From Candidatus Palauibacter australiensis (GTDB lineage Bacteria; Gemmatimonadota; Gemmatimonadetes; Palauibacterales; Palauibacteraceae): a stretch of DNA of 32,248 bases. The translations under genes were made by a program, and so were the position numbers. Position 1 is the first letter of the stretch; every line of letters starts with the position of its first letter. The notes below the pieces were generated by a model. The model made no database searches and had not been told where the DNA came from. It was given only the letters and a program-made list of their open reading frames with translations. Shown one piece after another: positions 28,517 to 32,248 of this stretch. Location: NCBI GenBank assembly GCA_026705295.1, contig JAPPBA010000184.1, positions 1 through 32,248 of the forward strand, read 5' to 3'.

Positions 28517-29310
28517 TCCTCGTCGGCCGGCTTGACGATGAGGCCGCCGCTGCGCCCGACCCTGGTGAACGGCAAGCCGTGGCGGTCGGTGAATTCGGAA
28601 TATGCCTGGAGGGCGCCGTCCGCCCAGTCCGGTTCGATGCAGTCATCGACGACGAACCCGCCGCCGGGGACGACGAGGGGCCAGAGTGCTTCGAGTACCT
28701 CTCGCGTGGGAAGGTAGAGATCCACGTCCAGCAGGACCGCGCCGACCGGACCCGTGACGTCGGCCCAGTTCACCTTCGCGCAGTCGCCCGCGACGATGCG
28801 GTAGTTCGAATAGCCCAGGCGCGTGAGGCCGTGCTCGAACACCCGGCGGTCCAGGTAGGAATAGTCCGAGATCTCCGACCTCGTCTTGCGCCGCTCGCCG
28901 GTCTCATGCGCGATGCTCTCCGGAGTGAAGCCGTCGAAGGTGTCCACGAGAACCAGGTCCCGCGGGTCGCGGGTCGTCATGAGGTGTTCGAGGATGAACA
29001 CGGAGCTGTCTCCGCGACCGACGCCGATCTCCACGACGGCGCCTCCGGTCCGTCGCGTCACATCGATGAGGCCCAACATCGCCGCCAGCACCCCGGGATC
29101 CACCCAGTAGGGATACGTCGGCAGCATCACGTTCCGTAGCAGCGGGGTCCGGTACACGATGCGTCTGGCCGCGCCCACGAGACCGGGCAGCCGGCGGTGA
29201 ACGGCCCGGACGAACGAAGCGAGCCGTCCCGCCCGGCGCACGTCGCCCTCGGGCCGTCCGGTCTCGGGCCCTTCAATCTCGGGGGACGATTCGCGGAGCG
29301 GGGATGCCAA
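28513..29310 (-). CDS. TylF/macrocin-O-methyltransferase-like SAM enzyme
   Basis: The 265-residue class I methyltransferase-like protein has the SAM-binding motif VEIGVGRGDSSVF (about 91-103), VDTFDGF (about 122-128) and LLDVDLYLPTREVLEALWP, then GGGFVVDDC (about 189-222). The LDVDLYxxT and VVDDC wording is typical of the TylF family, whose members O-methylate sugars. It likely decorates the glycan made with the WecB and GT4 partners. The start is TTG 29310, supported by AAAGGA (29318-29323) with 7-nt spacing. The first ~45 residues are Arg/Glu/Pro-rich and not part of the fold. It is the first gene of the - strand operon. Confidence 0.85.
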   Translation of the reverse strand: MASPLRESSPEIEGPETGRPEGDVRRAGRLASFVRAVHRRLPGLVGAARRIVYRTPLLRNVMLPTYPYWVDPGVLAAMLGLIDVTRRTGGAVVEIGVGRGDSSVFILEHLMTTRDPRDLVLVDTFDGFTPESIAHETGERRKTRSEISDYSYLDRRVFEHGLTRLGYSNYRIVAGDCAKVNWADVTGPVGAVLLDVDLYLPTREVLEALWPLVVPGGGFVVDDCIEPDWADGALQAYSEFTDRHGLPFTRVGRSGGLIVKPADEE

Positions 29311-29451
29311 CCGGTGGTCCTTTCGGCCCGAGCCGCCGGCCGAATCGCGAGCGCGAGCGGGGGAACCTGGAGTGATCCTGGGGGATACAAAGGGCCAAGC
29401 TACGTTGCCGCCGAAACGCTGCCAACCGATCGACAGGGAGGAATGCCGCCA
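29311..29451. other. Divergent intergenic region
   Basis: This 141-nt gap separates the - strand glycan operon from the + strand LamG lipoprotein gene and must hold the promoter(s) of one or both. The + strand has AGGGAGG at 29435-29441, correctly spaced for ATG 29452. I find no pair of hexamers at good spacing on either strand. Confidence 0.5.
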
Positions 29452-30771
29452 ATGTCGCGCATCGCCCCTCCGCGCCTCCTCGCCCTTGCCGTGCTTCTCG
29501 GTTGCGGAGCGGAGGACGACTCGATCATGGATCCCGGCGCGGCGCCGCCGGCCACTCCGCCGAACCTGGCGCCCGTGGCCACCAGCGCCATCCCGGCGCA
29601 GTCCGTCCCCGCCGGTACCAACGCCACGCTGGATCTCTCGCAGTTCTTCCGGGACCCTGATGGCGATGCCCTGACGTACAGCGCCACGTCCTCCGATACG
29701 CTCGTCGCGGAGGCCGCGGTGTCCGGCGACCGGCTGATCCTCATTGCCCTCTCCCGGGGCGAAGCGACGGCCATGGTGACGGCCAGCGACGGGTTGGGCG
29801 GCGAAGCCCGGCAGTCGTTCTCCGTGACGGTGCCGAACATGCCGCCGATGGCGGAGGGCGAGATCGCTTCACGGACGCTCGTCACCGGGAGCACGGAAAC
29901 CCTCGATCTCTCCAGCTACTTCACCGACCCGGAAGGCGATTCCCTGACGTACAGTGCCATGTCCTCCCACCCGCTCGTCGCGGGCGTCTCCGTTTCCGGA
30001 AGCGAGTTGACAATGGTCGGCCTTGCCCCCGGCGTGGCGGAGGCGACGGTGACGGCGCGGGACGGGGAAGAAGCCGAGGCCCGGCAGAGCTTCGAACTGG
30101 CCGTCTGCGCCGTGCCGGCAGGCATCCTGCACTGGTGGTCGGCCGACGGCAGCGGCGCCGACCGTATCGGGGGCGTGGACGCGACGCTCATGCACGGAGC
30201 GGGCTACGCCGAGGGCGTTCCCGGCGCCGGGGAGGCCTTCTCCTTCGATGGCGTGGATGCGATCGCGCTCGTGCCGAACGCGCCCACCCTCAAGCCGGCG
30301 GGGCCGTTCTCCGTCATGGCGTGGGCCAAACCGGGACCGGACGAGGCCAGCGGCAGCGGCACCGCCCTCGGAAAGGGACACCCCTGGCAGGAGTCGTGGC
30401 TGCTCGACAACCACAACGGCCGGTGGAGGTCGGTCCTCAGAGTGCGGCCCGGCTTCGGCGGAGACGCGAGGGTCTCCGGACCGCGCCTTGTCGCCGGCGA
30501 GTGGACCCACCTGGCCATGACTTGGGACGGCCAGCGCCTCACGTTCTACGTCAACGGAGAAGCGCAGGGAACGCACCGCGCCGGGAGCATCAACCCGACC
30601 GACGGGCCCGTCGGCATCGGATCGCGAAGCGAGGAGGGGTTCTCGGACGACGCATTGGAGGTGGAGTTCGAGGGAGAGATCGACGAAGCGATGTTCTTCG
30701 GGCGGGCCCTCGGCGAGGAGGAGATAGGGTCGGTAGTCCGAAACACCGCCACCGGCTTCTGCAGATCCTGA
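29452..30771 (+). CDS. Lipoprotein with two Ig/cadherin-like repeats and a LamG-like domain
   Basis: The 439-residue product has a lipoprotein signal (LALAVLLGCG, Cys18), a short Pro-rich spacer and two homologous beta-sandwich repeats at about 38-127 and 128-218, each with an F-x-DPxGDxLTYSA motif and ending VTV or LAV. A C-terminal LamG/concanavalin-like domain at about 224-436 (WAKPG, GEWTHLAMTWDGQRLTFYVNG in its usual place, shown in part: WTHLAMTWDGQRLTFYVNG). It is probably a cell-surface carbohydrate- or protein-binding lipoprotein. ATG 29452 is preferred over ATG 29443, which sits only 1 nt from the Shine-Dalgarno. The two cadherin-like repeats share nucleotide identity, so they duplicated fairly recently. 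Confidence 0.83.
   Translation: MSRIAPPRLLALAVLLGCGAEDDSIMDPGAAPPATPPNLAPVATSAIPAQSVPAGTNATLDLSQFFRDPDGDALTYSATSSDTLVAEAAVSGDRLILIALSRGEATAMVTASDGLGGEARQSFSVTVPNMPPMAEGEIASRTLVTGSTETLDLSSYFTDPEGDSLTYSAMSSHPLVAGVSVSGSELTMVGLAPGVAEATVTARDGEEAEARQSFELAVCAVPAGILHWWSADGSGADRIGGVDATLMHGAGYAEGVPGAGEAFSFDGVDAIALVPNAPTLKPAGPFSVMAWAKPGPDEASGSGTALGKGHPWQESWLLDNHNGRWRSVLRVRPGFGGDARVSGPRLVAGEWTHLAMTWDGQRLTFYVNGEAQGTHRAGSINPTDGPVGIGSRSEEGFSDDALEVEFEGEIDEAMFFGRALGEEEIGSVVRNTATGFCRS
29563..30105 (+). repeat. Intragenic duplication of an Ig/cadherin-like domain
   Basis: Two units of about 270 nt, 29563-29832 and 29833-30105, encode homologous domains. The nucleotide stretch CCTGACGTACAG occurs in both (about 29670 and 29943), followed by near-identical GCCAYGTCCTCC and CTCGTCGCGG. 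Confidence 0.7.
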
Positions 30772-30964
30772 CCGGCACGAGTCGGCGTCACTGCGGACGA
30801 CCAGGACGTTGTCTTTTCTGATACGCAACCGCCTACCTACCGGTCTCTCACGCGTTGCGACGCCGGGCGTGGGGTATGAGGTTACCGGGAACCTGCGAAC
30901 TGTCGGCGGACCTTGTTCGTCACGCTCGTAGCGCAAATGCTGAACGCAAGCCACACAAGGTAGA
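30772..30964. other. 193-nt intergenic gap before the HD gene
   Basis: No gene, clear terminator or well-formed promoter is visible. TTGTTC (30913-30918) with AATGCT (30936-30941) at 17-nt spacing is a weak candidate promoter for the HD gene. AAGG at 30957-30960 is a short Shine-Dalgarno close to ATG 30965. Confidence 0.4.
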
Positions 30965-32170
30965 ATGGACCGTATGACGAATGCGGGACTGTCACTGGAC
31001 GCGGATGACGGGCGTGGCCTGCCGTTGTTTCCGGAGCTGGCGGCCCCGTCCCCGTTCCGACGACCGGCGGATGCGCAGTCCCCGTTCGAGGATCCCCTCC
31101 TTGAAGCGCTAACCCGGACGCGTCCCGTGCGTCGCCTCAAGCGGATCGGATTCCTGGGCGCGATTGATCGCACCAAGTCCCGAAACTGGCATAACCGCCA
31201 CGACCACAGCGTCGCCGTCGCACGACTGGCACTCCTGTACGCCACGCTTCGCAACCTGTCCCAACGCGACACCCGGGTCTTGGCGGTGGCCGGGCTGCTT
31301 CACGACGTCGGTCACGGCCCCTTGTCGCATACGCTGGAACCCATCTTCAAACGTCGATTCAACATCTCGCATCACAAAGTGGGATACCGGATCATTCGCG
31401 GGGAATCACGACTCGGGCGCCAGATCCCGAACCTGCTGTCTCGGTATCGTCTCGATCCCGACGAAATTATCGCGATGATCGACGGTACTCACGGAGGACC
31501 ACACGCATTTCTCTTCTCAAGTCCCATCAACTTCGATACGATCGATGGAGTCACGAGATTCCGTTCCTTCTTCCTGGGAAGAAGGCCGGAAGTTGGATCC
31601 GCTGCGGTGATCGTGCGGGCGATCTCCGTGACCGACGCGCTTCCGACGCGGACACTCGATGTTTTTTGGCATCTAAAGCACCAGATGTACAACTCGGTTC
31701 TTCACGGTCCGGCCGGTCTCCTATACGATGGCCTCGCACAAGCCGCGGCGACGCGGGACATTCATCGCTTCACACCGGAGGATTTTTTCAAGGACGAACC
31801 ACAGTTCCGGCGTCGTGAACCGAGACTCTTTGGATTGCTTGATCGGGCGCGGAAAGCTCCTCGCAGATTGCGAAGAGGCCTGTCCGATGCCATCCTCGAT
31901 CATGAGATCGACGCGCCTACGCGCACGTTCTTCCGTAACACCTCCGTCGAACTCAAGACGCCGGGCGATCTCGTCCGCCGCTATAAGCAGAGTAAAACGT
32001 TCCGTAAAGCGAGTATTAGCGAGTTGCTTCCAACAGAGGACCCAACAAATTGCCCCTGTCGCGTCATACAGCCAGCGTTCTCGATGCCTGCAGGGATCGC
32101 TCCGAGAAAGGCATCGGAACGATGCGGGAAGCCGCTAGAACCCTGTTTGGCGGCGAATCCGACTTCTTGA
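30965..32170 (+). CDS. HD-domain phosphohydrolase (SAMHD1/dGTPase-like)
   Basis: The 401-residue protein has a canonical HD metal site: HDHSVAVARLA with His81, LLHDVGHGPLSHTLE with His113-Asp114, and NFDTIDGVTRF with Asp191 as the probable fourth ligand. The LLHDVGHGPLSH wording places it with SAMHD1/YdhJ-like HD proteins, which hydrolyse dNTPs or other nucleotides; substrate is not determinable. The last ~40 residues, from about 362 on (CPCRVIQPAFSM and after), look unlike folded protein and overlap the next gene in another frame, so the natural end may be earlier or a frameshift may be present. Base composition is locally much lower in GC than neighbouring genes. Confidence 0.8.
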   Translation: MDRMTNAGLSLDADDGRGLPLFPELAAPSPFRRPADAQSPFEDPLLEALTRTRPVRRLKRIGFLGAIDRTKSRNWHNRHDHSVAVARLALLYATLRNLSQRDTRVLAVAGLLHDVGHGPLSHTLEPIFKRRFNISHHKVGYRIIRGESRLGRQIPNLLSRYRLDPDEIIAMIDGTHGGPHAFLFSSPINFDTIDGVTRFRSFFLGRRPEVGSAAVIVRAISVTDALPTRTLDVFWHLKHQMYNSVLHGPAGLLYDGLAQAAATRDIHRFTPEDFFKDEPQFRRREPRLFGLLDRARKAPRRLRRGLSDAILDHEIDAPTRTFFRNTSVELKTPGDLVRRYKQSKTFRKASISELLPTEDPTNCPCRVIQPAFSMPAGIAPRKASERCGKPLEPCLAANPTS

Positions 32171-32248
32171 TCGGAGTCAACGGAAGCTATGCCCGCAGAG
32201 AGGCTACAGGGGGCTCGGATGTCGACGTGTTCTTCCTGGCAACTGACA
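32050..32248 (+). CDS. Pol-beta-superfamily nucleotidyltransferase, partial (window edge)
   Basis: The frame starting at TTG 32050 (alternative ATG 32122) runs open to the window end. It encodes helical sequence (SVLDACRDRSEKG, MREAARTLFGG) followed by the active-site signature GVNGSYARREATGGSDVDVF, i.e. GS-x9-SDVD with two catalytic Asp. This is the minimal motif of GlnD-like, MNT-like or CD-NTase-like nucleotidyltransferases; the fragment is too short to decide. It overlaps the HD gene by 121 bp (or 49 bp from ATG 32122) in a different frame. The pairing with an HD phosphohydrolase suggests a joint nucleotide-based function. Confidence 0.72.
   Translation, partial: MPLSRHTASVLDACRDRSEKGIGTMREAARTLFGGESDFLIGVNGSYARREATGGSDVDVFFLATD

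Follow-up and report, generated by a model that had tools for sequence, protein, structure and literature searches.

An acquired HD phosphohydrolase-nucleotidyltransferase gene pair, probably an uncharacterized defense-type module, in Candidatus Palauibacter australiensis

A two-gene cassette of about 2.3 kb, encoding an HD phosphohydrolase (HD) and a Pol-beta nucleotidyltransferase (NT), has been gained in the genome of Candidatus Palauibacter australiensis (G000), where it is probably an uncharacterized anti-phage or toxin-antitoxin type module. The human antiviral enzyme SAMHD1 is an HD protein, and bacterial HD dNTPases are known phage defense effectors; to our knowledge, Clover is the one system for which the restraint of such dNTPases has been explained. 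No paper on the HD-NT pair described here was found in the literature searched.

The locus and its insertion site

The window is the entire contig C184 (32,248 nucleotides) of a fragmented assembly. The gene for HD, a SAMHD1-type phosphohydrolase, lies at 30965 to 32170 on the plus strand (401-amino-acid open reading frame; folded part, approximately residues 40 to 362), and its product matches PF01966 (HD; Pfam) at an E value of 2e-11. The H...HD...D metal site is intact (H81, H113, D114, D191), as the first-pass annotation had read it, and is accompanied by an HE dyad (H122/E125). The 5' part of the NT gene occupies 32050 to 32248 (plus strand), with a TTG start at 32050 behind AGAGGA (32035 to 32040) and a frame open at the contig end. 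That this frame begins an NT was also claimed at first pass and is supported by PF01909 (NTP_transf_2; Pfam), which matches the 66-amino-acid stub at an E value of 1e-4; the motif GSYARREATGGSDVD agrees with GS-x9-SDVD. The two genes do adjoin, HD before NT, but are not successive as had been thought: their frames overlap by 121 nt (32050 to 32170, plus strand), where the C-terminal tail of HD has low model confidence. The overlap is also long in the nearest relative, G078 (175 nt; L032:10127-10301), and at most other loci the genes overlap or abut by a few nucleotides; many HD-NT loci overlap by about 4 nt, against 121 to 175 nt in the window and G078. The start context AACAAA(T/G)TGCC(C/G)CT is common to the NT genes of these two genomes.

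The remainder of NT was located by a family search within the same genome; it lies on the minus strand of contig C120, at its right end. This part comprises 243 codons (L043, reverse complement 1-732), has the C terminus NPTIRALLL, and is 54% identical to the full-length G078 NT; assuming equal NT lengths, about 14 nt are absent between C184 and C120. The join is based on reading frame and synteny, and it is supported because left and right homology brackets the same site in relatives: in DNA alignments, homology ends on the left at or near window base 30771 and restarts at 846 to 894 of the C120 reverse complement, with about 20 bp between the two blocks in G046. The insert is about 2.32 kb long (GC content, 58.6%), and its right end lies near base 845 of the C120 reverse complement. 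Rightward extension, as had been suggested, yielded nothing readable on C184, whose whole length the window covers, but the NT was continued on C120. Downstream of NT on C120 are a polyprenol-phosphate mannosyltransferase-like gene (termed DPM1 here, by inspection of its sequence), an ion-channel-like protein, and others. The expectation that the module runs beyond the right edge is thus correct for the remainder of NT but not for anything after it, since an ordinary glycosyltransferase-like gene (DPM1) and others follow, and the module is therefore two genes.

The left part of the insert (30772 to 32248) begins directly after the stop codon of a LamG-type secreted protein gene (29197 to 30771, plus strand; longest open reading frame listed, with the true start probably later), which is syntenic in relatives and lies outside the module. 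Its GC content is 59.6%, against 70.3% ± 1.8% (minimum, 66.5%) in 586 other window stretches of the same length, and the 60-nt counts from which the first-pass annotation had described a low-GC patch (27, 26, 41, and 39 of 60) were exact. In four genomes of the same genus (G395, G046, G056, and G042) the site is empty, a methyltransferase-like left neighbor and DPM1 lying close together without HD or NT. Because both flanks are syntenic in these genomes while the site is empty, the cassette was gained in the window genome; the earlier proposal of an acquired two-gene module is upheld by the empty sites and low GC content, together with plasmid and phage-contig copies and the conservation of the pair, with fusions, set out below. 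A further genome, G162, carries a different insertion in the same LamG-DPM1 gap, consisting of MntA-like and HepT-like genes (L157:1149-2184), and the site is therefore probably an insertion hotspot.

Distribution, carriers, and neighborhood of the pair

When 84,980 species genomes were scanned with an NT alignment, 80 NT loci emerged, and HD adjoins NT in 62 of them (58 with separate upstream HD genes on the same strand, 3 with fused open reading frames [Pseudomonas], and 1 convergent), with a small gap or none at nearly all paired loci; a scan of genome contigs with the window HD alone gave no match. The possibility, raised at first pass, that the pair is conserved in no other genome fell with this count. 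Hosts of the pair include Alpha- and Gammaproteobacteria, Nitrospira, and Desulfobacteraceae. In the phylum sample, this HD type occurs in 2 of 395 genomes (G000 and G078), both with NT, and G078 (HD identity, 63%) has the same gene order followed by type III restriction-modification genes. In the NT tree, a branch of length 2.12 (support, 100/100) parts TIM-paired from HD-paired NTs, and the position of the window NT, inside a group that is mostly alphaproteobacterial, speaks for horizontal transfer. One NT of the HD-paired clade, in Halovulum marinum (L075:5887-6903), had no adjoining HD that could be found and is possibly a solitary NT or a decayed locus. A third gene, an alpha-ribazole phosphatase-like histidine phosphatase, lies directly downstream of NT in about 20 loci (L064-L074, L076, L088, L094, L101, L103, L105, L108, L120, and L126); a histidine phosphatase also adjoins the divergent NT of Rhizobium BT04 (L052).

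The pair is mobile. It is almost the sole cargo of the 4.5-kb ColE1-type Escherichia coli plasmid pISHS7_5 (L050), a find in 1 out of 5,426 complete genomes of that species, and it is carried, together with a histidine phosphatase, by a viral contig of 11 kb (IMGVR_UViG_3300035491_000331; L203:4854-7442) that has filamentous-phage genes for minor coat proteins and a Zot-like assembly protein. The latter copy was found with the HD alignment, its NT having been missed by the first NT scan; an NT-based search of phage records and viral contigs gave no match, though the NT of this filamentous-phage contig exists.

Among 124 neighboring open reading frames, the PADLOC families listed were PDC-M30A and PDC-M30B (five each), mads, and PD-Lambda-5, with further matches to Pycsar PycC, CBASS E2, AbiEi, type II methyltransferase, and type I specificity models; the tally, which covers the top families, is inexact. 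As a control, PADLOC matches were found in 2 of 58 neighbors of ordinary Enterobacterales dGTPase genes (other taxa and other genes), and defense-model matches were commoner beside HD-NT than beside these control genes. From genomic context, in which defense genes are frequent, we favor a defense or signaling role. TcmP (PDC-M30A-like) lies upstream of HD-NT in L056-L058, L062, and L064; two of these loci, L056 and L057, also have Gp37-like genes on the downstream side. On Phaeobacter pP14_b (L201:860-5147), a Gp37/Gp68 gene and TcmP directly precede a likely Clover pair.

Protein families and comparison with named systems

The best profile matches of HD were EF1143 and SAMHD1 (E = 2.9e-24), the Dgt-type SpdGTPase (9p8w) being far weaker (E = 2.5e-6), and a fold search with its AlphaFold model (core confidence, approximately 97) also placed it with EF1143 and SAMHD1. 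The structure 9mr6, initially a suspected defense HD, proved to be a fungal SAMHD1. The window HD has the fold and catalytic residues of SAMHD1/EF1143 (COG1078) dNTP triphosphohydrolases, and the metal residues and HE dyad are invariant in 51 of 51 paired HDs; it differs from those enzymes in four replaced pocket residues and an obligate NT partner. At the positions of SAMHD1 Q149, K312, Y315, and D319, paired HDs have F (51/51), T (51/51), G (50/51), and S, C, or F (D in 0/51), respectively, whereas unpaired relatives of the same phylum have Q, K, Y, and D in 29 of 29. Because these four pocket residues are replaced and the catalytic residues kept, the substrate of HD appears to have changed, and ordinary dNTP hydrolysis by the paired HD seems doubtful from the alignments. 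A canonical housekeeping HD relative is separately encoded in the same genome (contig C72).

In NT, G45, S46, D57, and D59 are invariant in 41 of 41 sequences, and the motifs IGGxxDxN, LLND.IRY.R, and RxxKLR are partly invariant. The best fold matches of the G078 NT model (pLDDT, 94.7) were DrrA (E = 4e-4) and both halves of GlnE (probability, 1.00; TM-score, approximately 0.5), which outranked aminoglycoside NTs, MntA, and HalB. On this model, NT would share its fold and the G-x11-D-x-D motif with the AMPylases GlnE and DrrA; its sequence relation to GlnE, DrrA, and GlnD is too weak for membership. A distant full-length relative is PDC-M70A of PADLOC (E = 1e-34 for the C120 NT part [P0010], 1.3e-42 for the G078 NT, and 5e-54 for the E. 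coli plasmid NT). Its usual partner, PDC-M70B, is a TIM barrel with a weak likeness to the phosphodiesterase CbiR. This barrel adjoins M70A at PDC-M70 loci (L044-L049, L051, L053, L117, L123, L125, L128, and L131-L133), whereas HD precedes NT in the window pair, and none was found beside the window NT or at the HD-paired loci checked. At the Mesorhizobium AR02 PDC-M70 locus (L051), split genes annotated as 5'-nucleotidase lie upstream. No mention of PDC-M70 by name was found in the literature searched.

NT and HD domains are likewise combined in GlnD, but with NT first, whereas here HD comes before NT. The first-pass annotation had allowed that NT might prove to be housekeeping GlnD; this was rejected on the reversed domain order and on a best UTase_glnD score of 27.6 bits (fused homologue) against a cutoff of 519.4, and the GlnD model had no match among the window proteins. 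Likeness to MntA-HepT type VII toxin-antitoxin systems lies in an NT beside a potential toxin and in the pair at the same site in G162; in those systems, however, the partner is a HEPN protein, not HD, and the window-type NT is about three times larger. Against the curated NCBIfam models for MntA and Hailong HalB (cutoffs, 60 and 190 bits), the window NT stub scored 12.8 and 15.1 bits and the full G078 NT 14.5 and 11.7 bits, all below cutoff. The CD-NTases of CBASS are not the nearest relatives, since CdnD matched by sequence at an E value of 1.3 and no CD-NTase ranked in the top 50 by fold.

Clover couples a Dgt-type dGTPase, CloA, to an NTase, CloB, which makes an inhibitory dinucleotide; CloA is activated by dTTP and inhibited by p3diT, and loss of NTase activity is toxic, the NT acting as inhibitor of the HD dNTPase (PMC12265719). 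The window pair is likewise a two-gene operon of an HD phosphohydrolase and a Pol-beta NTase in a defense-type context, with the H...HD...D metal site and an HE dyad whose spacing (8 and 3 residues) is that of CloA H126/E129. It differs in that its HD is SAMHD1/EF1143-type, not Dgt-type, and the dTTP and p3diT sites of CloA cannot be mapped onto it. The Clover reference was a pair on a Phaeobacter plasmid, recognized by 11 CloA residues at the same positions (catalytic residues match the published ones with a shift of five), with CloB taken as the NT adjoining the recognized CloA; Enterobacterales dGTPases and other plasmid dGTPases, searched for CloA/CloB, had no NT neighbor. The NT gave an hhalign probability of 3.8% and a BLAST E value of 0.18 against this CloB, and HD aligned with CloA over the generic HD core only (91 columns). 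Clover membership was rejected, since neither protein is specifically related to the Phaeobacter pair, the one Clover pair compared; the two systems, alike in architecture, therefore appear to be built from different families.

Candidate functions and their implications

Our preferred reading, held with about as much confidence as doubt, is a horizontally acquired effector-regulator module in which an HD phosphohydrolase effector is held off by its cognate NT and released on infection. HD, as a SAMHD1-type metal-dependent phosphohydrolase, would be the toxic or antiviral effector, hydrolyzing a nucleotide-type phosphoester; NT would restrain it in healthy cells, and infection would lift that restraint. 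MntA NMPylates HepT, and this precedent, with the GlnE/DrrA-like fold, suggests that restraint would most likely act by NMPylation of HD itself; alternatively, the Clover precedent suggests a nucleotide ligand, as CloB provides for CloA. We infer the effector role of HD, the direction of control, and the anti-phage function. As a counterpoint, the NT family has other partners (the TIM barrel PDC-M70B and histidine phosphatase), and regulation of HD as such may not hold. More tentatively, with doubt outweighing confidence, we propose an undescribed anti-phage system in which an AMPylase-like NT of GlnE/DrrA fold either controls an HD of SAMHD1 lineage with a re-tooled pocket or has its work reversed by that HD.

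The main rival to effector restraint, which we consider rather unlikely, is a cycle of opposing enzymes, a switch in which NT would nucleotidylate a third target, be it a protein or a small molecule, and HD would remove the nucleotide or destroy the product. GlnE and GlnD each carry both opposing activities, and such a cycle would suit the full-length alignment of the NT model with both GlnE domains and DrrA (probability, 1.00), the loss of dNTP pocket residues from HD while the catalytic center is kept, the phosphoesterase-like alternative partners of NT (the weakly CbiR-like TIM barrel and the histidine phosphatase), and the existence of HD-NT fusions. However, the TM-scores of the model against GlnE and DrrA reach only about 0.5, no target gene accompanies the pair, and its patchy presence and carriage as tiny-plasmid or phage cargo better fit a self-contained module.

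In CBASS and Pycsar, effectors are switched on by signals that NTs make, and by the same logic an NT product or modification made on infection could turn the HD effector on. The coupling of NT and HD, and the proximity of the pair to CBASS/Pycsar-type systems in some genomes, are in keeping with this, but NT is not CD-NTase-like in sequence or fold and Clover, the nearest architectural analogue, uses its NT as an inhibitor (PMC12265719), so we regard an activating signal as improbable. An ordinary metabolic or housekeeping pair, e.g., in nucleotide salvage, is very improbable: HD proteins and NTs are common and the pair sits among ordinary chromosomal genes in some loci, but its presence is patchy (HD type in 2 of the 395 phylum-sample genomes), sister genomes have empty sites, plasmid and phage copies occur, and a separate canonical HD relative is encoded in the same genome. 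That the pair is itself a Clover system (CloA dGTPase plus CloB) is scarcely credible, since the same HD and NT architecture and HE dyad spacing are set against an NT without similarity to the Phaeobacter CloB and an HD with a SAMHD1/EF1143-type profile that shares the common core only.

The replaced HD pocket predicts a new substrate, and the E. coli plasmid copy offers a ready-made test system. If the more tentative proposal of an undescribed anti-phage system is true, HD-plus-NT immunity would have arisen at least twice, independently of Clover, and with protein modification or a new nucleotide chemistry. A second, unrelated HD-NT pairing, natural fusions included, would mean that phosphohydrolases under nucleotidyltransferase control have evolved convergently.
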